This document shows, in pieces, positions 35,260 through 51,545 of a DNA stretch of 64,000 nucleotides (its first letter is position 1; each line of letters opens with the position of its first letter). The position numbers and the translations under genes are program-made. Origin of the DNA: Anaeromassilibacillus senegalensis (GTDB lineage Bacteria > Bacillota > Clostridia > Oscillospirales > Acutalibacteraceae); assembly GCF_001261775.1 (NCBI RefSeq), contig NZ_LN868537.1, positions 186,001 to 250,000 on the forward strand, given 5' to 3'. Under the pieces are notes generated by a model that saw only the letters and a program-made list of their open reading frames with translations, was not told where the DNA came from and ran no database searches.

Positions 35260-35460
35260 ATGACGGATCTTTTCATTGGACTGTTGGCGGTGGGATGTTT
35301 GGCAGCGCCGTTTTTATTCCGTAAAAGGTGTGGTGGGTGCATTGGGTGTCCGCATCCATGCGCATGGCAAAAGAAAAGGCGGCCGGGTGGGATCCATGAT
35401 CCCCCCGGCCGCTTTGCCGCAGTTTGCGCGTATTTTAATCGGTGCTTTTTCTGTATTTAA
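35260..35460 (+). CDS. Small FeoB-associated Cys-rich membrane protein
   Basis: The 66-aa product has one N-terminal membrane segment (about 4-20) followed by RKRCGGCIGCPHPC, the cysteine motif of FeoB-associated proteins. AGGGGGAAAGG precedes the ATG. The residues after about 40 are read through a large GC-rich hairpin, and the last 26 nt overlap the convergent acetyltransferase, so the tail may not be conserved. It probably helps iron transport; the mechanism is not established. Confidence 0.72.
   Translation: MTDLFIGLLAVGCLAAPFLFRKRCGGCIGCPHPCAWQKKRRPGGIHDPPGRFAAVCAYFNRCFFCI
35371..35419 (-). terminator. Terminator of the polysaccharide cluster
   Basis: A long GC-rich inverted repeat (GCGGCCGG... 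CCGGCCGC with a GGGATC/GATCCC inner part, about 35381-35414) is followed on the minus strand by CCTTTTCTTTT. It lies inside the 3' part of the small FeoB-associated gene and downstream of the acetyltransferase. Confidence 0.75.
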
Positions 35461-35977
35461 CAACCCGTGCTGGATTGCCGGCTACCACGGCATAGGGCGG
35501 CACGTCTTTGGTCACGACCGAACAGGCACCCACGACGGCGCCCTGCCCAATGGTGACGCCCGGCAGGATGGTGACTCTGCCGCCAATCCAGACATCGTCC
35601 CCAATTGTAACAGGTTTTTCCTCACTCATTCCCTGCAGGCGCATGGGATGCTCCGTATCGGAAAAATTGTGATTTTCCGTGTAAATGACGCACCATGGAC
35701 CCATCATCACGTCATTGCCGATGATGGTTTTGCCGTAGATATTGGCTTCCACGCCGACACCGGAATGATCACCGATTTCCAGGCGGGTGGAGATATTGGC
35801 CTTGCGCTCTACATTGACGCCTTTCCCGCATTTGGCAACAAAGCGCTTTACCAGAAAACCGCGGATGTGTTTGCCGCCCAGCTTAATCGGTGCAAAGGAA
35901 TTCGGCAGATAGCGGGCAAAATATTGGTATAAAAACCAGCAGATGGCCTTCTGTATCCATTTTAAAATCTTTTTCAC
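35435..35977 (-). CDS. Hexapeptide-repeat O-acetyltransferase
   Basis: The 180-aa protein has the left-handed beta-helix repeats of the maltose/WbbJ acetyltransferase group, with IGDDVWIGGRVTILPGVTIG and GAVVGACSVVTKDVPP near the C-terminus and a candidate catalytic His in YTENHNF. As the last gene of the polysaccharide cluster it probably acetylates a sugar of the repeat unit or exported polymer. The acceptor is unknown. Confidence 0.9.
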   Translation of the reverse strand: MKKILKWIQKAICWFLYQYFARYLPNSFAPIKLGGKHIRGFLVKRFVAKCGKGVNVERKANISTRLEIGDHSGVGVEANIYGKTIIGNDVMMGPWCVIYTENHNFSDTEHPMRLQGMSEEKPVTIGDDVWIGGRVTILPGVTIGQGAVVGACSVVTKDVPPYAVVAGNPARVVKYRKSTD

Positions 35978-35990
35978 GCAGGTTCCTCCG

Positions 35991-37301
35991 TTACAGCTGC
36001 CAGTTCAGGATGGGCCGCCTTCCGATGCTGCGATAAATGACCGGCTCCTTTTCCATTTGCTCCAGCGCATAGCAGTTGCGTCCGTCGATGATGATGGGGC
36101 GCTTCATGTATTTGGCAAAGCTGGAAACATCCAGACTTTTTACCTGCGGCCACTCGGTGAAGATGAAACACAAATCGGCTCCATCCAGCGTCTGCTCAAT
36201 GGTGTCGCAATACAGAATGTTGCCGGGCTCCTGTTTTTGGAAGTTTTCAACGCCTACGGGGTCCCAGGCTTTCACGGTTGCGCCGTCCTCCAGCATGATG
36301 GGAATATTGACAAGCGACGGGGCCTCGCGCAGATCATCCGTGCCCGGTTTGAAGGTCAAGCCCAGAACCGCGATGGTCAAGCCCTCCAAGCTGTCAAAAT
36401 ATTTACGCGCAATTTTAATCGGTTTCAATTTTTGATTTTCGTTGACTTCAATCGCGGCCTTGATGGTCTTGATTTCATAATCATGAAAATTGGCAAGCCA
36501 GTGCAAGGCCTTGGTGTCCTTTGGGAAGCAGCTGCCGCCGTAGCCGATGCCCGCGTTCAGAAATTTGTTTCCGATGCGGCTGTCGTAGCCCATTCCTTTG
36601 GCAACATCATCAATGTCGGCGCCGATCAACTCACAGAGCAGGGCGATCTCGTTGATGTAAGAGATTTTTAATGCGAGAAAATCATTGGAGGCATACTTGA
36701 TCATCTCCGCGCTTTTGCGGTTGGTGACCAGGATGGGTGCGTCAAAATCCCTGTATACTTCCCGCATGATTTCCCCGGTTTTTTCATCCTCAACGCCGAT
36801 GACAATACGGGATGCATGCAGCGTGTCCCGCACGGCGGTTCCCTGCGCGAGAAATTCCGGGTTGGATGCGACCGTCATGTGGACGCCCGCACGGCAATTG
36901 GCGTTCAGCAGCGCTTCCACCTTGTCGTTGGTTCCAATGGGAACGGTCGATTTGACCACCACGACGCAATCTCTTGCGGCACTCTCTGCAATTTGCTGGG
37001 CAACGCCGAAGACGTATGTCAGGTTGGCACTTCCGTCCTTCTTTTCCGGTGTACCCACACCGATCATGATCACGTCGCAGTCCGCATAGGCGGATGCATA
37101 ATCCGTGGTATAAGTCAGACGGTTGCTGTTTTTCTGCATCAGTTCGGACAGGCCGTCTTCATAAATGGGGGACACGCCGCTCTGCATCAGACGAATTTTT
37201 TCTTCATCCACGTCCACACAAGTGACGACATGACCATGCTCCGCCAGGCAAACACCGGTTACAAGGCCGACATAACCGGTTCCGGCCACTGCAATTTTCA
37301 T
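35991..37301 (-). CDS. ugd: UDP-glucose 6-dehydrogenase
   Basis: The 436-aa enzyme oxidises UDP-glucose to UDP-glucuronate with NAD. The N-terminal Rossmann motif is AGTGYVG, the catalytic Cys is in YGGSCFPKD, and the C-terminal UDP-binding domain starts near VLGLTFKPGTDDLREAPS. The start at 37301 is set by AGAGGTGG 6 nt upstream. Its presence in the cluster suggests the polymer contains glucuronic acid or a sugar derived from it. Confidence 0.97.
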   Translation of the reverse strand: MKIAVAGTGYVGLVTGVCLAEHGHVVTCVDVDEEKIRLMQSGVSPIYEDGLSELMQKNSNRLTYTTDYASAYADCDVIMIGVGTPEKKDGSANLTYVFGVAQQIAESAARDCVVVVKSTVPIGTNDKVEALLNANCRAGVHMTVASNPEFLAQGTAVRDTLHASRIVIGVEDEKTGEIMREVYRDFDAPILVTNRKSAEMIKYASNDFLALKISYINEIALLCELIGADIDDVAKGMGYDSRIGNKFLNAGIGYGGSCFPKDTKALHWLANFHDYEIKTIKAAIEVNENQKLKPIKIARKYFDSLEGLTIAVLGLTFKPGTDDLREAPSLVNIPIMLEDGATVKAWDPVGVENFQKQEPGNILYCDTIEQTLDGADLCFIFTEWPQVKSLDVSSFAKYMKRPIIIDGRNCYALEQMEKEPVIYRSIGRRPILNWQL

Positions 37302-37320
37302 AAAGTTCCACCTCTGATTT

Positions 37321-38499
37321 TCAATCTTCTCCCAGGGCATGATGCCACTGTGCCTGTGAACATGCGTTGGTATAGGTCCTGCCGGCAAGAAGCTGTTTCT
37401 TTTGCCTCAGCGCTTCCGGGTTGGAGCAAACCTCTTTGAGCATGCGGCAGATGTCCTCCGCATTGTTTTCGCAGACCCATCCCGCTTCATCATCCAGAAT
37501 CATTTCCTTGACCGATGTGGTCTGCGTCGCCAGAATCGGCACGCCCAGGCATTTGGATTCGCTGAATACAATGGGAGCGGCTTCGTGGTAGGAGGTGAGA
37601 AAAAACAGGTCCGCGTTTTTTATGTAACGATAAGGATTTTTCTTTGTACCATAAAAGAATACCTGCTCTGAGATTTCCAGCTGCCTGCACATTTCCTGCA
37701 GGGGAATGCGCTGCATCCCGTCCCCAATAATGTGATAAAGAATCGGAATGCCGCTTTTCAGACAATTCTGTACAGCCAACAGTGCGCGTTCAATCCCCTT
37801 TTCTTCGCTCAGGCGTGCCACAGTCACAAGGTTGATCCGATCCTTTGGATAGGGAATAGGGTCCTGGCTGCCCATCTGGACAATCTTATCATACTCGTTA
37901 AAGTTGTTGACCACATAGGTTCGGTCTTTGAGACCGGGGTTCGCCTGAATAAAGCGTTCCCGGCATCCGCTGGAACAGGAAAGAACCTTATCGAACTTTT
38001 GATAGAGCTTGCGGATGGCGGGTGTGTTGCTGCCGCAGTTCAAAAAGTCGGAATGGACGACGGTGATTTTTTCCTTTGCGTCGACCCGTTTCAGGACGAT
38101 TTCATTTGTGCCGCCATAAAGAAGCTTGGGCGCTTCACTTTGCATGTAAGAAATAGCGGCGTCGTATCCGCTGAGCTTCGGCTGAAAATGCGCCAAAATG
38201 CGCAGGGGAACAGAGTTTCCAAACCAGCGGCACAGAACAGCGAAGAAAGAGCGCCAAAAGAACAGCAGCTTGTTTTCGTGCAGGACTTCTTTTTGACTCA
38301 TGCCAAGGACGCGCAGCAGGGGAGGGCTGTGCAGCACGGCGATGTTTTTGGGAAGCTGCTCCTTGTACTCCCCTTCCGGGTACATAAGAAGAAGCGTAAT
38401 ATCATATTCGTTCTCGATGTTGTGCAGCAGATTCAGCAGGCTGCGCTGGATGCCGCCGCTGTGCAGGTTGTTGTTAACAAAGAGCAGTTTTTTCTTCAC
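37321..38499 (-). CDS. GT4-type glycosyltransferase
   Basis: The 392-aa GT-B fold enzyme has the N-terminal NNNLHSGGIQRSLLNLL segment and the C-terminal nucleotide-sugar region with VARLSEEKGIERAL and FFLTSYHEAAPIVFSE (an E-x7-E-like element). It is retaining by family. The GTG start at 38499 has GGGAGG upstream and overlaps the previous stop by 4 nt (GTGA). Donor and acceptor are unknown. Confidence 0.92.
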   Translation of the reverse strand: MKKKLLFVNNNLHSGGIQRSLLNLLHNIENEYDITLLLMYPEGEYKEQLPKNIAVLHSPPLLRVLGMSQKEVLHENKLLFFWRSFFAVLCRWFGNSVPLRILAHFQPKLSGYDAAISYMQSEAPKLLYGGTNEIVLKRVDAKEKITVVHSDFLNCGSNTPAIRKLYQKFDKVLSCSSGCRERFIQANPGLKDRTYVVNNFNEYDKIVQMGSQDPIPYPKDRINLVTVARLSEEKGIERALLAVQNCLKSGIPILYHIIGDGMQRIPLQEMCRQLEISEQVFFYGTKKNPYRYIKNADLFFLTSYHEAAPIVFSESKCLGVPILATQTTSVKEMILDDEAGWVCENNAEDICRMLKEVCSNPEALRQKKQLLAGRTYTNACSQAQWHHALGED

Positions 38500-39302
38500 A
38501 GCGATTCGCCTCCCGGATTTTTTCCAAGGTATTCCCGTATCCCCTGCTTCATAAATTGATATGCTTTTTTCAGCGGGATTTCCTCGCTGAGGAAGTCCGG
38601 ATGACGCAGCAGAAGCTGTAAACACAGCGGTTTGGCAAGTATGGGAGAGAGGTGTGCGAACAGAGCGCCCTTATCCCGGAAGAATTTTTCCGAATAACCG
38701 TCAAACCAGGTGGATTCCTCATGTGTGACCTCGCCGATGAAAAGGGGGCTTGCATAGACGCGCAGCCCCTTTTTGCGGCATTCGTTGAGAAAAATGACAT
38801 CCTCACCGGACCCATACCGTGCACCTCCACCGAATAACAAGCTGAAACAGACGTTGGCCCGGCGGGCGCGTGTCGTCCGTACCGCAATGCGGTAGGTGCC
38901 ATAGCGAAGAGAATTGTGCCACTGTACCTTGGAGAATTTCGGAATGATATAATCCTTTCTTCCCTCGTTTTTGCAGTCCAGATTGAAAACGATAAGGTCA
39001 GCTTCCGGATGGCGGGCGAATTCTTCTAAAATCAGTTCCGCGTAGTGGTCGCGGTAACGCACGTCGTCGTCCGCGAAGAGGCAGATTTCCGCATTGGCGC
39101 GCATCCAGGCGTTATTGCGGTTCAAGCCGACGCCGCGCTCCTGGAAGGAGCAATAGCAGATGGAATGGCCGTTGTAGTCGAAGCGTTCCACTTCGTTTCG
39201 GCCGCACTGGTTTCCGACGATGGCGTCCGACTGGATATTCATGCGCTCCAACAGACTGTGATCGGTTTGCTGCATGGTTGCAATCAGGACTTGCAGCCGC
39301 AT
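38496..39302 (-). CDS. GT2-type glycosyltransferase
   Basis: The 268-aa GT-A fold protein has the DxD-type motif FADDDVRY (near 77) that binds the metal-nucleotide sugar. The N-terminal strand is less typical than in the other GT2 enzymes of the cluster. It overlaps the GT4 gene by 4 nt. Specificity is unknown. Confidence 0.87.
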   Translation of the reverse strand: MRLQVLIATMQQTDHSLLERMNIQSDAIVGNQCGRNEVERFDYNGHSICYCSFQERGVGLNRNNAWMRANAEICLFADDDVRYRDHYAELILEEFARHPEADLIVFNLDCKNEGRKDYIIPKFSKVQWHNSLRYGTYRIAVRTTRARRANVCFSLLFGGGARYGSGEDVIFLNECRKKGLRVYASPLFIGEVTHEESTWFDGYSEKFFRDKGALFAHLSPILAKPLCLQLLLRHPDFLSEEIPLKKAYQFMKQGIREYLGKNPGGESL

Positions 39303-39317
39303 AGTTAATCCCCCATT

Positions 39318-40136
39318 TTATTTGATTCCCCGGCGCAGTTTGTGAAAGGTCAGTGCGACCGGCCGGATACACGTTTTGCAGCGGTTGGGGAGGGTATTCA
39401 TTCCCCAGGCGTCCAGTTTTTTCAATATGTAACCCGAAAGCCGAAAATTGCATTTGTATTTGTCCAGCAGGCTCAGACTGCGGCTGGTCAGGCCGGAGGA
39501 GGTTTGTACATAGTAGTAAAAGACGTCGGTGACCAGCAGGGCCGTTTGTGCCCGGGTATAGGCTTCCAGTGAAAAAACGGCGTCTTCCGCCGTTTTCATA
39601 TTGTTGACAAAGGACAGGTCTGCGATCATTTCTCGTTTGTAAAGGGTGGCCCACACGGAATTAAAGCGGATTGCAGAGAGAAAATAGGGATAAATATGCT
39701 TTTGAAAATCCGGCTTTGCCACCAATGCGTCTTCCTTAAAGTAGTCGATGGGAGGTTCTACACGTCCGTCAGCATAGACCAGGCGGTAGGAAAAGCGGAC
39801 AATGTCGGCCTGGCTTTCCTCCTGCCTGCGGACCACCGTTTCCACACAGTCGAGGTCCAGGTAGTCGTCGCTGTCTACGAACAAAATGAAGTCTCCCGTC
39901 GCACGGCGCAGACCGGTATTCCGCGCCTCCGCGACGCCGCCGTTTTTCTTGGTGACAACGGTGATGCGGTCCCCGTATTGCTCCAAAATGGAGAGAGTCT
40001 GGTCGGTCGACCCATCATTCACCACGAGTATTTCCAAAGCGGGATACGTCTGTCCGACGAGGCTGTCCATGCATTTGGTGATATATGCTGCACAGTTATA
40101 AGCGGGGACAATGATTGAAACTTTCTTCATGTCCAT
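39318..40136 (-). CDS. GT2-type glycosyltransferase
   Basis: The 272-aa enzyme starts KKVSIIVPAYNCAAYI and has VNDGSTDQT and FVDSDDYLD, the nucleotide and DxD motifs of GT2. The ATG at 40136 has GGGAGG 5 nt upstream and shares one base with the stop of the preceding phosphoesterase gene (TGATG). Confidence 0.94.
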   Translation of the reverse strand: MDMKKVSIIVPAYNCAAYITKCMDSLVGQTYPALEILVVNDGSTDQTLSILEQYGDRITVVTKKNGGVAEARNTGLRRATGDFILFVDSDDYLDLDCVETVVRRQEESQADIVRFSYRLVYADGRVEPPIDYFKEDALVAKPDFQKHIYPYFLSAIRFNSVWATLYKREMIADLSFVNNMKTAEDAVFSLEAYTRAQTALLVTDVFYYYVQTSSGLTSRSLSLLDKYKCNFRLSGYILKKLDAWGMNTLPNRCKTCIRPVALTFHKLRRGIK

Positions 40137-41032
40137 CACGGCCTCCCGTCTTTCCAAGCCAAATTCAGGCGGATCACCACCACTTCTGGGGTGTTAAAGA
40201 CACGGGGAAGATTGTCTTCCACGCCGACGCCGCTGCTGACCATGATTTGCCGGTCGGACAACTTATAAAGGCCTTTGACGTATTTGACTTCGCCGCCCAT
40301 ATGGGTTTCCAAAATCTTATCCTGAATACCGGGCAGGTTTACATGCCCGCCGTGCGTATGTCCGGACAGGATCAGGTTGCACGGCAGTTCTTCCAGAAGA
40401 TCGGCCTGATTGGCACGGTGGAACAGCCCGATGGTAAATGTGTTCGGGTCAAGTTTTAAAGCCAGCTGGTTGACCTTTTCCATCATATGGTCGGTGTAGT
40501 GATCATCGCCGTCCGGATAGGGAAGATCTCGAATTCCAACGATATTGATCATTTCCCCGTCCTTTTCCAAGGGAACGATTTCGTCGTTCAGCACGTTGAC
40601 GCCCAAACTTCTGGCCAGATCTCCGACAGCGATGGTTCCGTCGTCCTCGTTCTGGCTCCAGATTTCATGGTTGCCGTAGGCGTAATAGACGGGCGCGATT
40701 TCCACAAGGCCCTTCAGTAAGGCCTCCGTGTTGTGGAAATCGGTCGTATCCATACTGACCAGATCGCCCGCAATAAAAATGTAAGAGGGATTGGCCGCTT
40801 TCACGTTTTCAATGACCTTTTGGTAATTTCCGCTGTTGTGAAAATCGGTTATTAATGCGATTATGGTGTCGTCAAACGCTTGCGGAAGCCCGCGGAAGGT
40901 CAGAACCTGCCGGTTGGTGACAACGCGGCTGTTATCCCAGAACACATAGCCGGTCAACGCGGAAAGCAGCAGTACAAGGATTACAAGGAAGAGTAACAAG
41001 GTCTTTGCGATTTTTTTAATGACGTTTCCCAT
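40136..41032 (-). CDS. Membrane-anchored metallophosphoesterase
   Basis: The 298-aa protein has one N-terminal membrane helix (about 8-30) followed by a calcineurin-like phosphoesterase domain: ITDFHNSGN, AGDLVS, YGNHEIW and LSGHTHGGH supply the metal ligands. The catalytic domain would lie outside the membrane. It starts 1 nt after the stop of the Wzz-like gene and overlaps the next glycosyltransferase, so it is part of the polysaccharide operon. Its substrate is unknown; a lipid-linked intermediate, undecaprenyl pyrophosphate or a polymer phosphate group are possible. Confidence 0.9.
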   Translation of the reverse strand: MGNVIKKIAKTLLLFLVILVLLLSALTGYVFWDNSRVVTNRQVLTFRGLPQAFDDTIIALITDFHNSGNYQKVIENVKAANPSYIFIAGDLVSMDTTDFHNTEALLKGLVEIAPVYYAYGNHEIWSQNEDDGTIAVGDLARSLGVNVLNDEIVPLEKDGEMINIVGIRDLPYPDGDDHYTDHMMEKVNQLALKLDPNTFTIGLFHRANQADLLEELPCNLILSGHTHGGHVNLPGIQDKILETHMGGEVKYVKGLYKLSDRQIMVSSGVGVEDNLPRVFNTPEVVVIRLNLAWKDGRP

Positions 41033-41033
41033 C

Positions 41034-42506
41034 TTATCTGTCTTCTGCTCCTTCCAAGGGGATTGCAGGGGCGGCGGGATCCGGTTCCTGCGGTTCTGTC
41101 TCTGCAAGGGAAGCTTCCTCGCCCGATTCGGCGGCTCGCAACGCCTTTTCCTGTTCCTCTCTTCTGAGCTTACGGAAGATTTCATACGAGAGGGCAAATA
41201 CGGTGCTGCCGCCAAGCCCCAACATGAAGCTGAGTACGGCATAAAGCAGGAATCCGACATTGGCAACCACCTGTACGCCGGTCAGCTGCGTTACATGGCG
41301 GCTGGCCAAATAGGTGTTATAATCCGACATGGTTTTATCCGCGATTTCGTTCAGCTCCTGCAGTTTGTTCTGTACATACGCAATGCGTTCCGTCACGCTT
41401 TTCAACAGTTTTCCGGTGTCGACGCCAGACGGCTCCGCGCTGAAGATACGGATGACTTCTTCGCAGTGTGCAGCGTCAATTTTATTGTTGCTGGCGCCGA
41501 TGGCATATTCTACATACGTGTCCATCAGGTCGTCATAGGTGGTGTCGTTAATCGTATCGCCGTACTCCAACTGGTCTTTGCTCACCGGCAGGTCATCGTC
41601 GTTGCGGCTGTCGTCGGCCTGGTTGTAGGCGTTCGGCAGGTCCCGGTTGGCGTCTGCAAATTTTTGAATTACCTGCAAGGTGCTTTCCGCCTGTGTGGCG
41701 TTGGTATTGGATTGCATCGTGTAGTTGTTTTTATTGTGCTGGTACTTCTTCAAAAGAACCTCCCGGTTCTTGGTAATCTGCCCCTCATAAATCTCAGAAT
41801 AGATCAGGGGCATGTCAAACGTTGCCAGCTCGTTATATTTTTTGTGCAGGTCGGAAAAATTGTATCCGGTGGATGGGGAACGGTAATTCTGGCTGTTGTC
41901 GGACAAGCGGTTCAGGTTATTCATCACATCGTGGATATTGTTGTCCAACAGGTCTGCGATTTCAATGTAATCGTAGTTTTCATTTTCAATCGAGTAGTTG
42001 TTTTCCGTGATATATGCCTGATTGATATAGGTCTTGTTATAGTAAAGGATGTAGTTGTTGATCAGTGCGTCCAGAATATCGTAGAGTTCCCCCTGCGGAG
42101 CGCCGCGCCGGTCGTTGTAGGTGATGATGAACTGGTTGGGATAGTAGGTATATTCTTCGCCGTCCTTGGTTTTTGCGGCCTGCAGCTCTTCGATATAATT
42201 GGGGGTGATAGATTTGATGGCTAGGCTGGAACGGATTTTATCCACGCTTTCGTTCAGAGAAAGGTCTTCCAACGTCTGTAAAATCAGGGTAGGGGAGGTG
42301 ATTTCGTTGATGTCGAAGGTGGATCCGTCCGGATTTAACCCTTCAGAGATAGAGGCGTCTTCAAACTGGATGATGATGTTGGCCGAATAGCTCTGCTTTT
42401 GCTGTACATAGAGATAGGAGAGGAGCACACAGCCGATAATGGAAAAGAGGATAAAAAATTTCCACTTAAAAATATAGTGAAAGATTTCTTTCATCGATAC
42501 AATCAT
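41034..42506 (-). CDS. Wzz-like chain-length/polysaccharide co-polymerase protein, copy 2
   Basis: The 490-aa protein has a membrane helix at about 15-34, a long extracytoplasmic region rich in Asn/Tyr and helices, a second helix at about 425-450 and a cytoplasmic tail rich in Glu/Ala/Pro. This is the Wzz/KpsE-type topology. No Walker motif or Tyr-rich tail is present, so it is not a BY-kinase fusion. After helix 1 it carries GLNPDGSTFDINE, which matches GYNPDGSKFNVYE in the neighbouring gene. GGGAGG precedes the ATG, which overlaps the previous stop (ATGA). Confidence 0.85.
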   Translation of the reverse strand: MIVSMKEIFHYIFKWKFFILFSIIGCVLLSYLYVQQKQSYSANIIIQFEDASISEGLNPDGSTFDINEITSPTLILQTLEDLSLNESVDKIRSSLAIKSITPNYIEELQAAKTKDGEEYTYYPNQFIITYNDRRGAPQGELYDILDALINNYILYYNKTYINQAYITENNYSIENENYDYIEIADLLDNNIHDVMNNLNRLSDNSQNYRSPSTGYNFSDLHKKYNELATFDMPLIYSEIYEGQITKNREVLLKKYQHNKNNYTMQSNTNATQAESTLQVIQKFADANRDLPNAYNQADDSRNDDDLPVSKDQLEYGDTINDTTYDDLMDTYVEYAIGASNNKIDAAHCEEVIRIFSAEPSGVDTGKLLKSVTERIAYVQNKLQELNEIADKTMSDYNTYLASRHVTQLTGVQVVANVGFLLYAVLSFMLGLGGSTVFALSYEIFRKLRREEQEKALRAAESGEEASLAETEPQEPDPAAPAIPLEGAEDR

Positions 42507-43918
42507 GATTTTTCCTCCCCCTTCGTTACATGTGCGTATCTCCGTCTTTTCTGCCGCCTGGCTTTTTTGGGAGACGTTTCAGAAGGATGAGAAAAGAGCG
42601 GTTCGTGCTTGATCCACTCATATCCCTTGATCAGGTGCGGCAGGGCAATGGCAGAGAAAACTGCCGCCATACAGCCTAGAATAAAACCCATCATCCCATA
42701 GCGGATCAGATTACGCACGGAAAGCGCGGAGGACAGCGGGTCTTCCGGAATAGAAAAGGAAAGGTAATCATGCGTTTTGTCGGAAAGGTATTCGTCGCAG
42801 GTGGTTTTTGCGAGCGCGGCGATTTCCGTCAGTTGCTTGTTAATGCTTTCCGTCATCTCCTGTGCGGTGCGCATTTCCGGAGAAGAGGAGGTCACGGTGG
42901 ACTGTGAATAGACGGAAGTCAGGAAATTGTAATGCTCCATGCTGGCGCGAATCGATTCCGTTTCAACGCCCTTGGTCTGTGCGCGCTGCGCCAGGTAATC
43001 GATGCCGGTCTTTGTTTTGTTCATGTAAAGATTTTGGTTCTTATCGATTGTCGGGATGAACAGGGAACCGGTAAGCTCCGCATCGTACTGGTCGATTGCG
43101 CCAAGAATGATATTTTTGGAGGAACTCGCCTTGTTGAACAGCAGTTCCTGCGAGTTGTGCAGATAATCGATTTTATTCAGATAGGTGAATTTATCCTTGC
43201 TTACGCCGGAAGTGGTGATGTATGCTTCCAGCTTGGGAAGCTCCACGTTGCGCAAGTTGTTGAGCATATCCATCAGACTGACAAAGGTCTGTTTGGTTTC
43301 TGCAGAACGGAAGGTACTGTTTTCCCCTTTGTAAGTGCTCAGCAGGGCCAGCATGGAGGAGATGCGGTCCCCATAGATGGAAACAATCTCCGAATAATCG
43401 TATTTGGACAGATCGAGGTCGCTTACGTCTAAAACCGTATTTTTTTCCGTGTATCGATCGTTGAAGTATTCGGTGTAGACTTCCGCCAGAGTAGAGAGCA
43501 GCTGGACCGTGTGGTTCTCAGCAAATTTATCTTTCTGCGAATACCAAATGGTGAACTCCATCGGAATATAGACGGAGGAACGGGAGTTCGTGACGGCGGA
43601 ATAAACGCGGCTGTAGCTTTGTTTGGCGGATTTTGCCTCAATGGTGATACGGGTTTTTACAAACTCGGTGGTCAGGTCCTCCACGTCCATACGGCTCAGC
43701 ATTTCATCTATGATTTTATCTGACTTCATCTCGTAGACATTGAATTTGCTGCCGTCGGGGTTATATCCCTTTTCCGATCCTGTATAGCTCAAAGCGAGGG
43801 TCATACCCTGCCGGTTGTAGCTGGCCAAAAAGGTGTAGGAACCTCCCAGCAAAGGAATGATGATGGAAAAGCAGAGTACGATGATGAAATTCCTTTTGTT
43901 AAACAGCTTTGCAATCAA
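42503..43918 (-). CDS. Wzz-like chain-length/polysaccharide co-polymerase protein, copy 1
   Basis: The 471-aa protein has a membrane helix near residues 11-33, a long extracytoplasmic domain and a second helix near 405-430, followed by a basic tail (KKARRQKRRR). The overall layout and the GYNPDGSKF motif link it to the adjacent Wzz-like protein, but most of the sequence has diverged. The TTG at 43918 is chosen because AAAGGAG lies 11 nt upstream inside the end of wzy; the gene overlaps wzy by 20 nt. It lacks kinase motifs. Confidence 0.83.
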   Translation of the reverse strand: MIAKLFNKRNFIIVLCFSIIIPLLGGSYTFLASYNRQGMTLALSYTGSEKGYNPDGSKFNVYEMKSDKIIDEMLSRMDVEDLTTEFVKTRITIEAKSAKQSYSRVYSAVTNSRSSVYIPMEFTIWYSQKDKFAENHTVQLLSTLAEVYTEYFNDRYTEKNTVLDVSDLDLSKYDYSEIVSIYGDRISSMLALLSTYKGENSTFRSAETKQTFVSLMDMLNNLRNVELPKLEAYITTSGVSKDKFTYLNKIDYLHNSQELLFNKASSSKNIILGAIDQYDAELTGSLFIPTIDKNQNLYMNKTKTGIDYLAQRAQTKGVETESIRASMEHYNFLTSVYSQSTVTSSSPEMRTAQEMTESINKQLTEIAALAKTTCDEYLSDKTHDYLSFSIPEDPLSSALSVRNLIRYGMMGFILGCMAAVFSAIALPHLIKGYEWIKHEPLFSHPSETSPKKARRQKRRRYAHVTKGEEKS

Positions 43919-45167
43919 TCGGCAGTTCGCTCCTTTCTGTGGAATCAACCGGGGCGGAAGTCGTTTTTGGGCCCTGCGCCGTCAGGGGCCGGAAGTTCAT
44001 GGCGCACATCATAAATACATTCAAATATTGTTTGTGGGTGTAGAAACTGAGGGACAGGGAAAATGCAAATATGGCGACGATCGCACAGGAAAACAACGGA
44101 TTGTTCTTAATGTTGCGAAAGAAGCTGGAAGCCATCAGGGAGGTATACAGCAGCAGGCCGATCAGTCCCTGATCGAACAGCGCCTGAATCCACTGATTGT
44201 GCGCATAGGTATTGAGAAATCCGTTCTCGGTCATAATTTCAATGGTGGCGCACACGCCAAACCCATGCACCAGCGCCTGTGCGTCGGAGAAGACATAGTT
44301 GATGAGGAAGCCCCAGATGTCAAATCGGCCGCTGCCTTTATCCTCCTGGATCTGTTCCAGGCTGTATCGTTCCTTGAGCATGTCGGGCAGCAACGGCAGC
44401 ACGACAAACACGATTACAAAAGCGACAATCAGGAGTGCGATCAGGATTTTCAGCTTGGTCTTCGGGTTTTTTACCACCAGCATGATATAGGCAAGCATGG
44501 AAATTACGATTGCCGCCAATCCGCCGCGGGAACCGGTCCGCAGGATGGCATAAAACGTCAGCGCCAAATAAACTGGGGCGATGAACCGCAGCTTTGTTTT
44601 TTGGACGAGCTGCTCCATTGCAAACAGGACGGGGAAGATAAAATAGATACAGAAAAAGTTGGGGTCTTCCTCTGAACCCATTACGATGATCGTGGTGCGG
44701 TCGCCGTAGATGGTCTGGTTGCTGGAAAAGCAGAGCGCCATACAGACGATGCCGACCAGCAGCCAGGTATAGGCGACCAGCTGGCGTTCCTTCTGGTTAT
44801 AGATCCGGCACGTCGCCATGATGGTGACCACCAGCGCCAGCGCAATGTCCTTCACAACGGTCATGCTCTCCGAGCCACGGAAAAAGAGCAGCGTGCTGGC
44901 CAGGAAGAGCAGATGCAACGTATAAAATAAATGCACACTGTTGAAGCGCATTTCGTTATTTTTAGCAACAAACAAACGGAGAAACAAAATACCCGCGACG
45001 GGGAGCGTTGCGGCTTTCAGGACGGACATGCCGGGAATCAGCGTGATAAAAGTGAGCGGCATACAAAAATAATAAAAACAGATCAGCCAGGCGTCTACGC
45101 CAATGCGTTCCTCCGTCGCTGATTTATTCCGCATACGGTCGCGGAACCGTGTCAGGCGATTTTCCAA
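43899..45167 (-). CDS. Wzy-type O-antigen/capsule polymerase or ligase
   Basis: The 422-aa polytopic membrane protein has about 11-12 hydrophobic segments. The Wzy_C/O-antigen ligase features are RTGSRGG and HNQWIQALFDQGLIG in the periplasmic-side loops. It would polymerise lipid-linked repeat units outside the membrane. The TTG at 45167 is preferred because AGAGGGTGG lies 6 nt upstream; the frame is open to 45230, where a TTG has no ribosome-binding site. Confidence 0.88.
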   Translation of the reverse strand: MENRLTRFRDRMRNKSATEERIGVDAWLICFYYFCMPLTFITLIPGMSVLKAATLPVAGILFLRLFVAKNNEMRFNSVHLFYTLHLLFLASTLLFFRGSESMTVVKDIALALVVTIMATCRIYNQKERQLVAYTWLLVGIVCMALCFSSNQTIYGDRTTIIVMGSEEDPNFFCIYFIFPVLFAMEQLVQKTKLRFIAPVYLALTFYAILRTGSRGGLAAIVISMLAYIMLVVKNPKTKLKILIALLIVAFVIVFVVLPLLPDMLKERYSLEQIQEDKGSGRFDIWGFLINYVFSDAQALVHGFGVCATIEIMTENGFLNTYAHNQWIQALFDQGLIGLLLYTSLMASSFFRNIKNNPLFSCAIVAIFAFSLSLSFYTHKQYLNVFMMCAMNFRPLTAQGPKTTSAPVDSTERSELPIDCKAV

Positions 45168-45198
45168 CCAGTCACCACCCTCTTTCTCTGCGTTGGTT

Positions 45199-46731
45199 TT
45201 ATGACGCGGGCGTTCCCTTATATTTTCCAATCATCTTTTTTCCAAGATTGAGCAGATAACGAAACGGTTCGGTCCGGCAGAATAGAGCTACGTTCAGGCA
45301 AAGCGGCAGAATGGCGGCTACAACGCCTTTCAGGATAAAGTCCACGTATACCTGTCCGGTAGAAATGAAGCCGCAGAGCCAGAAAGCGGCGGCGGATTCC
45401 ACAAATGCCAGAACCAGATAGGCGCCCAGCCAGAGGAAAACCCTTTTGCAGCTTTTTACAAGAAAAGACTTATAAAACAAGATGATTTTTAAAATGTATT
45501 GGATGAGATAGGTGCTGGTTGTGCCGATCAAAATGCCGAGCATGCCTATTCGCATTCCCAAAACAAAGGATACCACCAGATTAATAGTGGAGCCAATAAT
45601 GGAAATATATTTGTCCTTCTGAAACAGGCCGGATGCCGAAAGCATATTCCAGACCGGAATACGCATGGTCATCAGGAAAAAGTTGAGCACACAGACTGAG
45701 ACAATGTCCAGGCCAAGAACCAGATTTTCTCCAAACATCAGCGCCACAAACGGGTTGATCAGGCAGATCAGACAGGCGCTGCAAAAGGCGGATATAAAGA
45801 ACATCGCGAACAGCAGCCGATGCAGTACCGTATCGATGTATTCCTTGGACTCCGTGGCCAGCAGGTTCCCGATGCTTCCGCTCATTGCGGCGGAGAGCTG
45901 GTTCATCACATTGGTCAACGTGTTAATGATAATCGTATAGTTGGAATACATGCCGACTTGAATGGTTCCCACCAGGGCGGAAATCAGAATATTATCCGTG
46001 GAACTGGTGATCGTCCAGGACAGTTTGCCAATAAACAGATCGCGCACATTGCGAAAAATGCTCTTGCGGCGTTCCGGAGACAGAGCATCGGTCGTGTTCC
46101 TGATGTAGGGATACAGCTGGTTGACGCGGAACGAGACCGCAAGATTGTTCAGGATGCCGACGACAATCAAAAAGACCAGATAGTAGATCAATTCCCGGGT
46201 GAGAATCAGGACGACAATGCCGCCAATGACGGTCAGGACGCGGAAAAGCAGGTCGATGATGGTGATGACATACTGCTTTTGATCGGCGGAGAGAAGGGAA
46301 CGTTTGTATGAAAAGAAATAGGACGAAACCGTCTGTGCAAGGAACAGCAGGAATACAGCCGTAATGTAGCCCTGGCTGTAGTGGACCCCTTTTACAATGT
46401 AGGGAAGGAAGGGAATCATCAACAGACCGATCGCGGTGATCACAGCGGCGATAAAGCGGTAGATCCCTTTATAGAAATGCATCAGACGGCAAATTTCCTT
46501 TTGATCTCCCTGGGCGAGCGGCGCGTACATGTGATAGATGATTACAGAACCGACGCCCATTTCCGCCAGGGAAAGCAGCGCCAGCACATTGACCAGCAGG
46601 CCGTTGAGGCCAACACCGTCGATCCCAATGGAGTCGAGCATGACGCGGCGGGAAACCAGGCTGAGGATACAGATGACCACCTGCTGGATAAAGCCCCAAA
46701 GGGAATTTTTAATGGTGGCTTTTGCTCTCAA
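45199..46731 (-). CDS. Wzx-type oligosaccharide flippase
   Basis: The 510-aa protein has about 14 membrane segments spread evenly through the sequence, as in MATE/MOP-superfamily polysaccharide transporters. SLWGFIQQVVICILSLVSRRVM opens the first helix. It would flip the undecaprenyl-linked repeat unit. The TTG at 46731 with GGAGG 7 nt upstream is preferred; an ATG 39 nt earlier lies inside the preceding gene and has no such site. Confidence 0.9.
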   Translation of the reverse strand: MRAKATIKNSLWGFIQQVVICILSLVSRRVMLDSIGIDGVGLNGLLVNVLALLSLAEMGVGSVIIYHMYAPLAQGDQKEICRLMHFYKGIYRFIAAVITAIGLLMIPFLPYIVKGVHYSQGYITAVFLLFLAQTVSSYFFSYKRSLLSADQKQYVITIIDLLFRVLTVIGGIVVLILTRELIYYLVFLIVVGILNNLAVSFRVNQLYPYIRNTTDALSPERRKSIFRNVRDLFIGKLSWTITSSTDNILISALVGTIQVGMYSNYTIIINTLTNVMNQLSAAMSGSIGNLLATESKEYIDTVLHRLLFAMFFISAFCSACLICLINPFVALMFGENLVLGLDIVSVCVLNFFLMTMRIPVWNMLSASGLFQKDKYISIIGSTINLVVSFVLGMRIGMLGILIGTTSTYLIQYILKIILFYKSFLVKSCKRVFLWLGAYLVLAFVESAAAFWLCGFISTGQVYVDFILKGVVAAILPLCLNVALFCRTEPFRYLLNLGKKMIGKYKGTPAS

Positions 46732-46748
46732 ATCACTTCCTCCGTTCG

Positions 46749-47759
46749 TCAGTCGTTCCGGTGCTTCCATGTAAAATAGGCCATCCGCAGGTAGAGCAAT
46801 CCATACTGTTTTTTACACATATACCGGTAGACGGCGGGATTCTCTCCAAAATCGCGGCAGGGCAAATCGCTTAAAAACGTTTCCGTGATCTCTTTCATTC
46901 TATCATACCGCTGGCGGTGCGTGCGTTTTACATTCGGATTAAACAGAAACCAGATGCTTTGAAAGGTCTTGTAGTAAAAATCTCCCAGCAATTTGTTGCG
47001 TACTTCCACGTTTTCCGGGTTCCATCCCAAAACCAGAGGGATGATCCGGTTGGAGGAGACACGGATGATATCGAAATAATCGTAAGTAACCTTTTTCCAA
47101 AGCCGTGCATGGTCATTGGCATAATAGCGATATAGGATATTCGGGATAAAGTAGACCGATTTCACAACGTTTACAAACTCGACGAGAAAGACCTCGTCTT
47201 CATTCCGGCGCAGGGAGGGAAACTGAACATTATTTTCCCGTATGGTACGCGTCTGAAACAGCTTAAAACACGCGGATTGCAGAATTCCCTGCTCGCCAAA
47301 CATAAACATGTGGGGATAAAAATTCCGCCGGACCTGTTCCCCTGTCAAAAGCAGGTGGTCGGCCTTGGGAATGGCACGCTTGTTTTTATTCTGATCGTCT
47401 ACCTCAAAGCCGCCGACCACCAGATCGGCGTTGGTGGTTTCCATCGCCTCGACCAGCAGAGCGACGGCCTGCGGATACAGGTAATCGTCGACGTCAAAAA
47501 AATGCAGGTATTCTCCGGTTGCCAATTCGATTCCCAAATTGCGCGCCGGCCCGGGACCCTGATTTTTGGTATGCGCAACGCGGATCCGGGGATCGGATTC
47601 CGCCATGCGGTCGCACAGGGAGGCGCTGTGATCGGTAGAACCGTCGTCAATCAGCAGAATTTCAATCTCCGGATACGTTTGTTCCCGTAAGCATTGAACA
47701 CCGCTTTCGATAAATTGTTCCATATTGTAGACAGGTACGACAATGCTGACTTTTTTCAT
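46749..47759 (-). CDS. GT2-type glycosyltransferase
   Basis: The 336-aa enzyme begins MKKVSIVVPVYNMEQFIE and has IDDGSTDHS and FFDVDDYLY (DxD). GGGAGG is 7 nt upstream and the ATG overlaps the stop of the previous gene (ATGA). The C-terminal third is rich in aromatic and basic residues. The sugar donor is unknown. Confidence 0.94.
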   Translation of the reverse strand: MKKVSIVVPVYNMEQFIESGVQCLREQTYPEIEILLIDDGSTDHSASLCDRMAESDPRIRVAHTKNQGPGPARNLGIELATGEYLHFFDVDDYLYPQAVALLVEAMETTNADLVVGGFEVDDQNKNKRAIPKADHLLLTGEQVRRNFYPHMFMFGEQGILQSACFKLFQTRTIRENNVQFPSLRRNEDEVFLVEFVNVVKSVYFIPNILYRYYANDHARLWKKVTYDYFDIIRVSSNRIIPLVLGWNPENVEVRNKLLGDFYYKTFQSIWFLFNPNVKRTHRQRYDRMKEITETFLSDLPCRDFGENPAVYRYMCKKQYGLLYLRMAYFTWKHRND

Positions 47760-48877
47760 CTGCCGCCCTCCCGATGGAACGCTTTTTTACAACGGTTGAT
47801 TCGATTCATTATACCCCCGTACAATTTCAATGTCCATGGTTTTTTATGGATGAATGACAGGAAAGAAAATCTACGCTTTTGGGCGCATTTTAACAGTAAC
47901 TGCCGTTCTAACCAATAAAGGTTCAGGTCCAGATGGGACATGGCGTCTGAATAGGGATGGGAATCCAGAAAATCCAGGAATTCCTGTTTGCGCTGCTTCC
48001 TGTTTTTGGGATTATCTTTGTGGAACAGATCGAGACGCATGTAGTCCAGTACAATGCCGACGACACGATAGCGGTAGAAGGCATCCATAATGTCTTCACG
48101 TCCCGGATAAAACGCCTTGATATGCGTCAGATTGTGCTGCATAAGGGAATTCATTACCGGGATGTAGTCGGGGTTGTACCGGTTGCAGACGGAACCCTCG
48201 TTGGTGCGGTAATAGTACATGACCTTTGGCCGGTAACATGCTGAGCGGCAGTAATGGAAAACCAGCGTGTTAAAAATCACATCCTGGGATTTTTTCTGTC
48301 GGTCAGGGAAGAGCAGGTTGTGCTCCGCCAAAAACGCACGCCGGTAGGTTTTAGCCCAAACAGAAGTGCACAGCACCCGACGGATTCGTTCGTCCTCCGG
48401 CTGACAGGGAGCGCCAGAAACACAGGAAATACAGTAGGAATCGATGGTTTCGGACGTGAGTTCAATGATTTCCTCACTGGACGGCGGCACCTGTTGTGGA
48501 CGGTCCTTCCAGTAGCCGGCGTAATCAAAGAATACCACGTCATGCGGATCATCTCGAAGGGCCAACGCCGTGTCGGCAAACCATTCCGGCAGCAGGTCGT
48601 CGCCATCGACGAAGTAAATCCATTGCCCTCTTGATTCACGTATGATTGTGTTGCGGACTTCACAGATCCCCTGGTTTTCAGGGAAGTGAATCACACGGCC
48701 GCGCCCGTCTTTTTCCGCATATGCGTCGCACAGAGCGGCGGAGCCGTCGCTGGAACAATCGTCCACGAGCAGGATTTCTATTTCCTCAGATTGCTGCGCC
48801 AGGATGCTGTCCAGGCAGGCGGGCAGGTAAGTTTTTACATTATAAATGGCAACGCCGATACTGATGATTGGCTGCAT
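47756..48877 (-). CDS. GT2-type glycosyltransferase
   Basis: The 373-aa enzyme starts MQPIISIGVAIYNVKTYL and carries VDDCSSDGS and FVDGDDLLP. It has an extended C-terminal region of about 170 residues beyond the GT-A core. AAGGAG lies 6-8 nt before the ATG. It is separated by 84 nt and a hairpin from the upstream glycerophosphotransferase-like gene. Confidence 0.93.
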   Translation of the reverse strand: MQPIISIGVAIYNVKTYLPACLDSILAQQSEEIEILLVDDCSSDGSAALCDAYAEKDGRGRVIHFPENQGICEVRNTIIRESRGQWIYFVDGDDLLPEWFADTALALRDDPHDVVFFDYAGYWKDRPQQVPPSSEEIIELTSETIDSYCISCVSGAPCQPEDERIRRVLCTSVWAKTYRRAFLAEHNLLFPDRQKKSQDVIFNTLVFHYCRSACYRPKVMYYYRTNEGSVCNRYNPDYIPVMNSLMQHNLTHIKAFYPGREDIMDAFYRYRVVGIVLDYMRLDLFHKDNPKNRKQRKQEFLDFLDSHPYSDAMSHLDLNLYWLERQLLLKCAQKRRFSFLSFIHKKPWTLKLYGGIMNRINRCKKAFHREGGR

Positions 48878-48907
48878 GAAAATTCTCCTTTACGAACTTT
48901 TACGAGC

Positions 48908-48963
48908 AAAAGCCCGGCCGCGGAGAGCCGGTGATTTCCGGTTTCCCTGCGGAGGGGCTTTTT
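48908..48963 (-). terminator. Possible internal attenuator hairpin in the polysaccharide operon
   Basis: AAAAGCCC (48908-48915) and GGGCTTTT (48955-48962) pair around inner GC-rich stems (GCGG/CCGC and CCGG/CCGG). On the minus strand it ends GGGCTTTTGC, a short T run, so termination would be partial. Confidence 0.45.
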
Positions 48964-50134
48964 AAAGAAGCGCGCGAATTGCGGCAACAGTACGCGCGCA
49001 GTTATCTGTGCTGCGATCAGCAAAAAACGCCTGGATTCGCTCCCGATAAGGGGAGGAAACCTGCATTCCATTTTCCAGGCGGTCCTGAATGAAATTGAGC
49101 ACTTCGTTTTTATGGGTACAAACCGGGCCAAAGGCGTCTTCGCGGTACTGGAAATATCCGCGCCGGTATTGGGTTGCAAAAAACTTTTCTTCATCAAATT
49201 GATAAAAAACCAGAGGCTTTTCCATGTATGCAAAATCGAAAAAGACGCTGGAATAGTCGGTGATCAGCAGCTTGGACTCCATGAGCAGCTCCTGCACGTC
49301 GTTCTTTGCAAGGTCCGCAATTTTTACCCGGGGATGGTTCCCGGAAAAAAGAGGAGTGAAGCGCTGAAATTCCTGGTGCAGGTACAGGACCGCTTCATAG
49401 TCGTATTGTTCCAACAAGGCATGAAAGCGGGGATGGTCCAAAAGTCCGCTGAGCGCCCGGTAATACTCACTTTCACGAAACACTTCCATGTCACTGCAAT
49501 GGTTTAGATAGGCGCGCCAGGTAGGCATTAAGAGAATCTGCCGTTTTTCTGTATGTTCTTTTAACAGCCGGTCGTAGCGGCACAAACCGAGCAGTTGCAC
49601 AACGCCCTGCGGATAGCCGTAGCGGCTGGAAATATCCTCATATTCCGGCTTTGCACCGCAGACGAATAAGTCGAGATGCACCTTTGGATAATAGAGCGCC
49701 GGTATATCATTCAAAATAATGCCGTGCTGCAAAAAGATTTTCTTGCCTTGGATCAGGCCATATCGATCCAACTGGGTAAAAAGATAAATATTGGGAGCGT
49801 ATCCCATAACATGGGTGCTGATTTTCGCTTTTGCGCAGGCGAGTGCCAGATAATGCCTGAAACTCCCATGCTGGATGGTGCGTCCCAAACGGCATACCCG
49901 CTGGTAGTCGGGAGAATGCCGGTCGATGACGTAGGCGGCGTTAATTTCCGGATGCTGCTGTGTGAGATGGCGGAAAAGATGGTAGGCGTTGTCGCGGGCA
50001 TCGACGCCGCGTTCCGCGAGAATCCACAAATCTTTATATGCGGGGGTAAAACGTGCAAATAAACCGACAAACCATGCGAAAAAGTAGCATAGCATGCATC
50101 CTGCATATACGGCGTACCGTCTTAATTTTCCCAT
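48962..50134 (-). CDS. CDP-glycerol glycerophosphotransferase family protein (TagB/TagF-like)
   Basis: The 390-aa protein has an N-terminal hydrophobic anchor (about 8-30) and a GT-B Glyphos_transf domain. FLQHGIILNDIP contains the catalytic-type His, and LLITDYSSVFFDFAYMEKP is the conserved donor-site motif. Family members add glycerol phosphate to teichoic acid linkage units or polyol phosphates to polysaccharides. The start at 50134 overlaps the upstream gene by 24 nt and has GGGAGC 12 nt upstream. No tagD-like cytidylyltransferase is in the window. Confidence 0.88.
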   Translation of the reverse strand: MGKLRRYAVYAGCMLCYFFAWFVGLFARFTPAYKDLWILAERGVDARDNAYHLFRHLTQQHPEINAAYVIDRHSPDYQRVCRLGRTIQHGSFRHYLALACAKAKISTHVMGYAPNIYLFTQLDRYGLIQGKKIFLQHGIILNDIPALYYPKVHLDLFVCGAKPEYEDISSRYGYPQGVVQLLGLCRYDRLLKEHTEKRQILLMPTWRAYLNHCSDMEVFRESEYYRALSGLLDHPRFHALLEQYDYEAVLYLHQEFQRFTPLFSGNHPRVKIADLAKNDVQELLMESKLLITDYSSVFFDFAYMEKPLVFYQFDEEKFFATQYRRGYFQYREDAFGPVCTHKNEVLNFIQDRLENGMQVSSPYRERIQAFFADRSTDNCARTVAAIRALL

Positions 50135-50156
50135 TCTTTGTACTCTGCTCCCAATG

Positions 50157-51545
50157 TTATTTTGTTGGAGGGGATTTTGAAGCCTCTGCTGAGGCGTAAT
50201 TCGGCTCCTGACGAACACCCTGTGAGCTTTCTTTCAGAAACATGACTTTAACGGTCATGAGTATCAACTTGATGTCCTGCGCAATGGAATAATTTTTGAT
50301 GTACAGCAGATCATACAGCGTTTTATCCTCTGTTTTGGTATCATAACGTCCATAAACCTGCGCCATGCCGGTCAAACCGGCCTTAACCAGGAACCGTTTT
50401 TCGTAGTTCTCAATGGTTTCCTTATATTCCGTTACAAATTCCGGCCGTTCCGGGCGGGGGCCAACAATGGACATGTCCCCCATAAGGATGTTTACCAGCT
50501 GCGGCAGCTCGTCAAGGCGCGTGCTGCGCAGAATTTTTCCGACTCTTGTAATACGGGGATCGTTTTCTGTAGAGAGCATGACGCCGGACAGCTTTTCCGC
50601 GTCGTTGATCATGGTGCGGAACTTATAGATTTTAAAAACCTTTTCGTGCAGCGTCACACGCTCCTGCGTATAGAGGATGGGACCTTTGGAATCAAAATGA
50701 ATGGCGATTGCGCAGAGCAACATGATGGGGGAAGCTATCACCAAACCAATAAAGGAAAAGAATATATCAACCGCACGTTTGGTGAAAATGGTAAATCGGG
50801 ACGGCTGAAAGCCTCTTAAATGCAGAAGAGGCGTGTCTTCAAAATTGACGATGTCGTATTGGTTCATAATGTTATAAAGCGTTGGTAAAATATAAATTTC
50901 CTTGTTCAGCTCAATGGCTTTGGAAATGATTTGGTTGCGCGCCTTGGCTTCAATGTCGTTGGAAACAAAAACACTGTCAAACGCCTGCAATCTGTTTTGC
51001 AGCAGGTCATCCAAAAAAGCCTCGTCGTTTGTATCGATCAGCTCGTACCACGCGTCGTTGCTGATGGATACATAGGCGTACTTGATTTTGCGGGCCAGCT
51101 TGCTGTCCACATCCTTGGACTCCACAACCAGAAGCTTGGGGGGAACAACAAATTTATTGATGATATAGACCGAAAGCATTTTTTCGGACAGAATTAAGAC
51201 GAACGCAAGTGCAAAAGACAATAAAAAACGCCACCAATTCGCTGCAAGAAGAGTGATGTCGAAAACCATAGTCACTAAAACAGCGGCAAAGGAGGCTAAA
51301 GTCAGACAAATGATAATGGAGATTCCCAATTCATAGGTTCTTCGTATGATACGGCTGTAAATTTCGAAAATATGGAACAATGTAAGCAGTGTAACAGTGA
51401 ATGTGACAGGAAAGATCAAATGGATGCCCTGAAAGATTTCCCAGCGAAACTGAAACGGGATAAAAAGCGAACTGAATACAAGGAATAAGTCAAAGCACAT
51501 GACCATCATATCAATGAAGAAGTTTTTGTACGTTTTGATGTTCAT
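50157..51545 (-). CDS. Initiating sugar-phosphate transferase (polyprenyl glycosyl-1-phosphate transferase)
   Basis: The 462-aa protein has about five N-terminal membrane helices, a central CoA-binding-like domain, then another helix (about 265-290) and the bacterial sugar transferase domain: YKFRTM, TRLDELPQL and SIVGPRPERPEF are the family motifs. It would transfer a hexose-1-phosphate to undecaprenyl phosphate, the first step of repeat-unit assembly. It is the first gene of the cluster, with GAGGGGAT 7 nt before the ATG. Confidence 0.95.
   Translation of the reverse strand: MNIKTYKNFFIDMMVMCFDLFLVFSSLFIPFQFRWEIFQGIHLIFPVTFTVTLLTLFHIFEIYSRIIRRTYELGISIIICLTLASFAAVLVTMVFDITLLAANWWRFLLSFALAFVLILSEKMLSVYIINKFVVPPKLLVVESKDVDSKLARKIKYAYVSISNDAWYELIDTNDEAFLDDLLQNRLQAFDSVFVSNDIEAKARNQIISKAIELNKEIYILPTLYNIMNQYDIVNFEDTPLLHLRGFQPSRFTIFTKRAVDIFFSFIGLVIASPIMLLCAIAIHFDSKGPILYTQERVTLHEKVFKIYKFRTMINDAEKLSGVMLSTENDPRITRVGKILRSTRLDELPQLVNILMGDMSIVGPRPERPEFVTEYKETIENYEKRFLVKAGLTGMAQVYGRYDTKTEDKTLYDLLYIKNYSIAQDIKLILMTVKVMFLKESSQGVRQEPNYASAEASKSPPTK

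Follow-up and report, generated by a model that had tools for sequence, protein, structure and literature searches.

In Gram-positive bacteria, the chain length of Wzy-made polysaccharides is set by kinase autophosphorylation and dephosphorylation of a polysaccharide co-polymerase (PCP) of class 2, according to the parts of a review that deal with this control (PMC12220298); GGDEF is not mentioned in those parts, which treat PCP-2b phosphorylation. Systems of this kind (CapAB, CpsBCD, Wzd-Wze-Wzb) are of the Wzx/Wzy type, and associate a co-polymerase with two transmembrane (TM) helices, a bacterial tyrosine kinase (BY-kinase) and a PHP phosphatase with the initiating transferase and the Wzy polymerase. 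Here we analyse a surface-polysaccharide cluster of Anaeromassilibacillus senegalensis, which occupies positions 35435-51545 of a 64,000-nucleotide stretch of contig NZ_LN868537.1, hereafter the window. This cluster is likewise of the Wzx/Wzy type, with two-TM co-polymerases beside the initiating transferase and Wzy. In contrast to the PCP-2b systems, the loci that share its central genes show no kinase or PHP phosphatase and have a probably outward-facing phosphoesterase (MPE) instead; they encode two large paired co-polymerases (W1 and the tail-less form of W2, mostly of 420-530 aa), against a single one of about 230-260 aa. We put at roughly 0.72 the probability that the cluster uses a kinase-free assembly module made of W1, W2 and MPE, encoded by three adjacent genes:

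g07 (W1), 42503..43948, minus strand: co-polymerase-like protein; the start may be near 43918
g08 (W2), 41034..42506, minus strand: predicted kinase-less polysaccharide co-polymerase with a short acidic cytoplasmic tail
g09 (MPE), 40136..41032, minus strand: predicted membrane-anchored calcineurin-like phosphoesterase (PF00149, 46.3 bits, cut-off 21.5)

Neither g07 nor g08 matches a Pfam or NCBIfam family. The two proteins are homologous to each other, W1 being a paralogue of W2. Their structures were predicted with AlphaFold2 from alignments using 60 of 75 W2 rows and 54 of 80 W1 rows, the window's counted in. The g08 model (mean pLDDT 80.8) has the layout of a co-polymerase and contains no kinase domain. 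Searched with Foldseek, it gave 13 hits at E<=0.001, every one of them Wzc, WzzE or another polysaccharide co-polymerase; TM-scores were low in both the W1 and the W2 searches. In the VIA comparison, residues 3-446 of g08 were aligned with residues 17-453 of Wzc at Z 14.9, which covers all of the protein except its short tail. The first 17 rows were titled Wzc or KpsM(T)-KpsE, the next being an unrelated row at Z 9.5, and the alignment with 7nib_E reached Z 14.5 with an rmsd of 4.4 Å over 169 residues. Consistently, 19 of 60 W2 proteins matched the Wzz family (PF02706) at E<=0.01, those matches of relatives that were inspected lying under the Pfam cut-off. A sequence search of the PDB with W2 found the GGDEF tail carried by many relatives and no co-polymerase among the 60 matches listed. 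The predicted structure thus shows W2 to have a co-polymerase fold without kinase domain, with two TM helices, an alpha/beta base and long extracytoplasmic helices, and we regard this assignment as well supported; the same features are recognised more weakly in g07, whose model (pLDDT 86.5) has long helices at both ends. The homologue of g07 in the same-genus genome G127 is listed as 471 aa, and a PDB sequence search with W1 returned nothing useful. The predicted fold is shared with the PCP-1 proteins Wzz, WzzE and FepE and with the co-polymerase part of Wzc (PCP-2a), from which the module differs by its two paralogues lying side by side, by the presence of MPE and, in the window, by the lack of a Pfam Wzz match. 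Opposite charges of the tails, basic in W1 and acidic in W2, were considered as a pairing rule and dropped. Of 15 W1-W2 pairs compared, those of the window, L077, L083, L087 and L088 show the contrast clearly and those of L078 and L090 weakly, whereas the remaining 8 do not show it (L and G numbers designate our loci and genomes).

The three genes recur together. Searching 150 genomes of the family with g08 gave matches in 8, and 21 of 394 genomes of the order matched a profile; in the neighbourhoods of these matches, g07-like, g08-like and g09-like genes stood together within otherwise differing clusters. As a test, the W1 alignment alone was used as a query, so that loci were chosen by neither g08 nor g09. 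The collection scanned held one genome per species for 84,980 species and yielded 186 pattern matches, of which 163 were confirmed as W1 relatives. All counts over 80 loci refer to the best 80 of these 163, which include fragments of metagenome-assembled genomes and near-copies, several repeating contigs of the genome-search set. With score thresholds of 30 bits for W1 and W2 and 40 bits for MPE, W2 was found within 300 bp of W1 in 77 of the 80 loci, the three others (L081, L091, L137) being interrupted by contig ends. MPE was present in 70 loci and within 400 bp in 67. Among the ten loci in which it was not seen, six (L081, L091, L099, L100, L108 and L137) stop at a contig end or close to one, and contig ends are also close in L083 and L087, whose near-copy L088 has an MPE 5.1 kb upstream. 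The MPE profile has only 2 matches in the 3.5 Mb genome of the window, one of which is g09, so that adjacency by chance is very unlikely. Loci whose W2 carries a GGDEF tail mostly have the genes in the order MPE-W1-W2 (51 of 61 such loci within the set of 80); those with a tail-less W2, the window included, mostly have W1-W2-MPE.

The distribution of the module is patchy. Only 8 of 398 genomes across the phylum matched the W1 profile, two being the window's genome and a genus-mate and two matching only at E about 1e-3; the named W1 loci come from Oscillospiraceae, Lachnospiraceae, [Clostridium] citroniae, Ruminiclostridium hungatei, Monoglobus and Christensenella. Sequence and gene order show the trio recurring as a unit in many Clostridia, and the module is well supported as such. 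To these loci we applied probes consisting of single sequences of the kinase, the phosphatase and the canonical Wzd of a second polysaccharide cluster in the window's genome, described below. None of the 80 module loci was matched by the kinase, PHP-phosphatase or Wzd probe, and over all 108 sequences scanned the three probes matched only in the control from that second cluster. In six kinase loci taken as a control from module-bearing relatives, the probes recovered the kinase in 6/6, Wzd in 6/6 and the PHP phosphatase in 4/6, and no W1, W2 or MPE was found there (0/6). In the scanned loci, the trio therefore shares no locus with a BY-kinase, a PHP phosphatase or a canonical Wzd.

The g09 protein has an N-terminal hydrophobic segment with lysines ahead of it, and by the positive-inside rule its domain is probably outward-facing. 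It carries the metal-site motifs GNHE and GHTHGG and belongs to the calcineurin-like phosphoesterases. YaeI, LpxG, TagD and the LCP proteins, the last two met below, are taken in their generally known roles. MPE resembles the membrane-anchored metallophosphoesterases of the YaeI/LpxG type in its calcineurin fold and its GNH(E) and GHxH motifs; unlike them, it is tied to polysaccharide clusters and scores well under both equivalog cut-offs. GNNE replaces GNHE in 27 of 86 MPEs, in a count that takes in truncated rows and a few MPEs located away from W1/W2 and leaves aside L021, L022, L081, L125, L138, L141 and L156; altered catalysis is suggested for this subgroup. Two MPE open frames are about 570 aa long (L095:13075-14781 and L097:13033-14742), and in that of L097 Pfam places a GT2 domain before the phosphoesterase one. 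The PDB sequence search with MPE found Mre11/SbcD-type nucleases only and was uninformative on the substrate.

A Pfam GGDEF tail was found in 46 of 60 W2 proteins. In a quick tree of 91 rows, computed with long-branch warnings and without the copies L021, L022, L077, L081, L125, L138, L141, L156 and the frame-broken L079, the GGDEF-tailed W2 proteins form one clade of 71 rows (SH-aLRT 100); the window lies among the tail-less proteins, which are not a single clade. Residues of the GGDEF and EAL domains were read by the general rules for these domains. The 75 tailed rows were reduced to 71 by removing those of 4 loci whose contigs occurred twice; in this set, no tail kept either GG(D/E)EF (0/71) or the RxxD I-site (0/71), a few rows being possibly misaligned there. 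Binding of cyclic di-GMP (c-di-GMP) through the I-site was considered for these tails and is not supported by the motif. From their sequences, the tails are pseudo-enzymes lacking a known c-di-GMP site. Their nearest analogue would be PelD of the Gram-positive pel operon, likewise a membrane polysaccharide-assembly protein with a degenerate cytoplasmic GGDEF domain. According to PMC7112168, PelD has an intact RxxD I-site by which it binds c-di-GMP, and the streptococcal PelD is without the degenerate GGDEF domain, as is the window's W2. The W2 proteins of the relatives thus share with PelD-type receptors the degenerate GGDEF and not the I-site; moreover, Pel is synthase-dependent and not of the Wzx/Wzy type. 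In two loci, W2 is fused to an EAL domain instead of GGDEF (L072:3679-5994 and L073:10032-12245), and both EAL domains look degenerate.

Enzymes of cyclic-dinucleotide metabolism are encoded near the module in some genomes. A diguanylate cyclase with an intact GGDEF lies about 7-10 kb from the module and on the same strand in G193, G250, G343, G263 and G151 (loci L164, L165, L166, L167 and L169); four of these cyclases were checked with Pfam, and three show a weak Cache match. The cyclase, here about 7.5 kb from the module, is the only further GGDEF match in G250, G343 and G263, whose completeness is 87, 84 and 77%. The clusters L060-L066 encode an EAL protein, with catalytic residues kept in the three that were aligned (L060, L062 and L066). 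The module is thus linked to cyclic-dinucleotide signalling by location, which is not proof.

Under the kinase-free reading, W1 and W2 would form a mixed co-polymerase around Wzy and set the chain length. More tentatively, MPE, held outside by its N-terminal anchor, might cleave a phosphate bond at the outer face of the membrane beside the polymerase, which would recycle undecaprenyl-pyrophosphate or release completed chains. The degenerate GGDEF tail that W2 carries in the larger sister group would probably supply the signal input given elsewhere by the kinase. The substrate of the phosphoesterase and the role of the GGDEF tail are put forward as hypotheses.

Several observations weigh against this reading. 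For the fold, chance alone can bring mostly helical models to a Z of about 14, according to a warning of VIA, and the case for W2 therefore rests on the identity of the top rows and on the end-to-end coverage. The match of W1 is weak, its two best Foldseek hits being Wzc chains with E of 3e-4 (TM-score 0.19) and 1.7e-3, and Wzz was matched by only 1 of 54 W1 proteins. For the association, no MPE was found near W1/W2 in L085 and L090, two of the 80 loci in which contig ends give no explanation, nor in L071 and L073; MPE lies 1.3-5 kb away in L080, L088, L156 and L070; and in L027, L074 and L075 neither W1 nor MPE is visible around the W2-like gene. Given the GNNE subgroup, not all MPEs need be active enzymes. 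For the signalling, the tails lack both the catalytic motif and the I-site in all 71 rows, the window's W2 has no tail, the 14 GGDEF matches of its genome are all far from the cluster, and a cyclase similar to those found near the module lies on another contig in G210 and G165. Finally, a BY-kinase scoring over the cut-off was found elsewhere in 16 of the 22 module genomes searched, where it may help in trans.

The module is embedded in a series of 14 consecutive open reading frames (ORFs), running from 51545 to 35435 on the minus strand. All 14 were found at 91-99% protein identity in G127 and can therefore be taken as genes. Several ORF starts listed by the program look too long, and probable starts are given where relevant; for g09, the listed ORF begins at 41266 and the likely start is the ATG at 41032. 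The other eleven genes are:

g01, 50157..51545, minus strand: initiating polyprenyl-phosphate sugar-phosphotransferase (PF02397, 227.6 bits; TIGR03025, 341.3 bits, cut-off 295.55)
g02, 48962..50218, minus strand: member of the Glyphos_transf (teichoic-type transferase) family (PF04464, 116.6 bits, cut-off 22.1); the listed GTG start overlaps g01 and the likely start is an ATG near 50134
g03, 47756..48877, minus strand: GT2 glycosyltransferase (PF00535, 104.8 bits)
g04, 46749..47759, minus strand: GT2 glycosyltransferase (PF00535, 123.7 bits)
g05, 45199..46770, minus strand: Wzx-like flippase (MatE, 22.4 bits, E 1e-4, under the cut-off of 24.9; no NCBIfam match)
g06, 43899..45230, minus strand: Wzy-like polymerase (PF04932, Wzy_C, 56.7 bits)
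g10, 39318..40157, minus strand: GT2 glycosyltransferase (PF00535, 128.7 bits)
g11, 38496..39302, minus strand: GT2-like glycosyltransferase (PF00535, 28.8 bits, barely above the cut-off of 23.3)
g12, 37321..38625, minus strand: GT4 glycosyltransferase (PF00534, 104.6 bits); likely start near 38499
g13, 35991..37388, minus strand: UDP-glucose 6-dehydrogenase, TuaD-like (TIGR03026, 444.5 bits, over the cut-off; 518.6 of 700 bits against the TuaD equivalog model); likely start near 37301
g14, 35435..35977, minus strand: hexapeptide, WcaF-like acetyltransferase (PF00132, 52.7 bits; 99.7 of 192 bits for the WcaF family)

The initiating transferase g01 and the polymerase g06 place the cluster among the Wzx/Wzy-dependent ones, and g05-like genes were found in 49 of the 80 module loci. 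An earlier sequence-only reading had described a complete cluster of this type on one strand, with five glycosyltransferases and a supply of UDP-glucuronate. Family scans and ORF order agree with it on the type, the strand and the kinds of genes, the five glycosyltransferases being g03, g04, g10 and g11 (GT2) and g12 (GT4), and g13 is well supported at the gene level as the source of UDP-glucuronate; the list fell short of completeness, since the phosphoesterase g09 had been overlooked. As judged from the genes, the polymer probably contains uronate and is possibly acetylated. A KptA/Tpt1 RNA 2'-phosphotransferase gene (51925-52473) lies directly upstream of the cluster, and Rfam matches in the window comprise a T-box leader (10996-11269, minus strand) and a small SRP RNA (53598-53696, plus strand).

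The same reading had noted a CDP-glycerol glycerophosphotransferase-like gene in second position and deduced from it a glycerol- or polyol-phosphate decoration. The family assignment stands (PF04464), and the deduction is weakened by the single copy of the gene and the lack of TagD. We accordingly find it unlikely that the cluster makes a teichoic-like polymer in which g02 adds glycerol-phosphate or ribitol-phosphate and MPE, as a phosphodiesterase, trims the substituents, even though g02-like genes occur in 41 of the 80 loci and an MPE in 70. This frequency indicates that g02 belongs to the wider cluster type; conversely, 39 loci have no g02-like gene, many of them being cut by contig ends. 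The g02 protein scores far under the cut-offs of TarB, TarF and TarL (60 of 550 bits for the TarF equivalog model) and is the sole PF04464 gene of the genome. No TagD-type CDP-glycerol synthase (TIGR01518) was matched at E<=1e-3 in this 99.9% complete genome, a search that found it in 12 of 14 control genomes, and of its two IspD-type genes one scores strongly (213 bits) and the other weakly (34.6 bits, cut-off 27). Thus neither TagD nor the separate PF04464 primase and polymerase of wall teichoic acid synthesis were found. The genome has three candidate LCP ligases, none of them inside the cluster.

Somewhat less probable still is that the module works as a PCP-2b-type system of the usual sort, served in trans by the kinase and phosphatase of a second polysaccharide cluster. 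The sequence-only reading had stated that the Wzd/Wze/Wzb set is absent from this cluster, which is confirmed by family scans: the region 35435-51545 has no match to the BY-kinase model TIGR01007, and none of its proteins matches the CpsB/CapC PHP phosphatase family PF19567. The idea that a usual part is simply missing does not hold, because g07, g08 and g09 form a different, recurring co-polymerase module. The genome-wide search for a kinase and phosphatase proposed at that stage did find a pair. The only TIGR01007 kinase over the cut-off in the genome lies on another contig (C12:85253-85861), adjoining a 231-aa Wzz protein (PF02706), a CpsB/CapC phosphatase (PF19567) and a transferase (PF02397). 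Absence of the kinase from the whole genome, which had been a candidate conclusion, is thus rejected. This second cluster (C12:84502-87361) comprises a canonical Wzd, a BY-kinase, a CpsB/CapC phosphatase and an initiating transferase. Having its own transferase and its own Wzd, the pair does not clearly belong to the system studied here.

This complete set, together with the kinases of the 16 genomes mentioned above, is what would favour action in trans. Against it stand three nearly complete genomes that have the full trio and no over-cut-off kinase (G115, 95%; G158, 98%; G423, 99%). Of the three other genomes without such a kinase, the less complete G193 (87%) and G263 (77%) also have the trio, and G120 has a W2-like gene only. 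Furthermore, the closest over-cut-off kinase on any module-bearing contig is about 100 kb away (G421), and the six kinase loci of relatives contain none of the three module genes. Least probable of all is that W1 and W2 are another two-TM coiled-coil pair of the pathway, such as a scaffold or an export component, rather than chain-length proteins: this would suit the lack of family matches in the window's pair and the weak fold evidence for W1, but the alignment of W2 to the co-polymerase region of Wzc runs end to end, and 19 of 60 W2 proteins match Wzz.

Among the matches listed in a search of the open-licence full-text literature, judged by title and start of abstract, no description of such a module was found, which is no proof of novelty. 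Going beyond the kinase-free module itself, we advance tentatively, as less likely than not, that it represents a second Wzx/Wzy mode in Gram-positive bacteria, with a W1-W2 hetero-co-polymerase, a dedicated outward-facing phosphoesterase that works on the undecaprenyl carrier or the completed chain, and, in most members, a second messenger controlling the chain-length protein directly through its fused GGDEF or EAL pseudo-enzyme tail; the clusters of some species would then encode their own diguanylate cyclase and EAL phosphodiesterase, and the window would belong to the tail-less branch. If the kinase-free module is real, it would provide a testable parts list for the control of surface polysaccharides in Clostridia, consisting of a kinase-free assembly, a phosphoesterase partner and a length regulator often fused to GGDEF, and it would explain clusters that seem unregulated.

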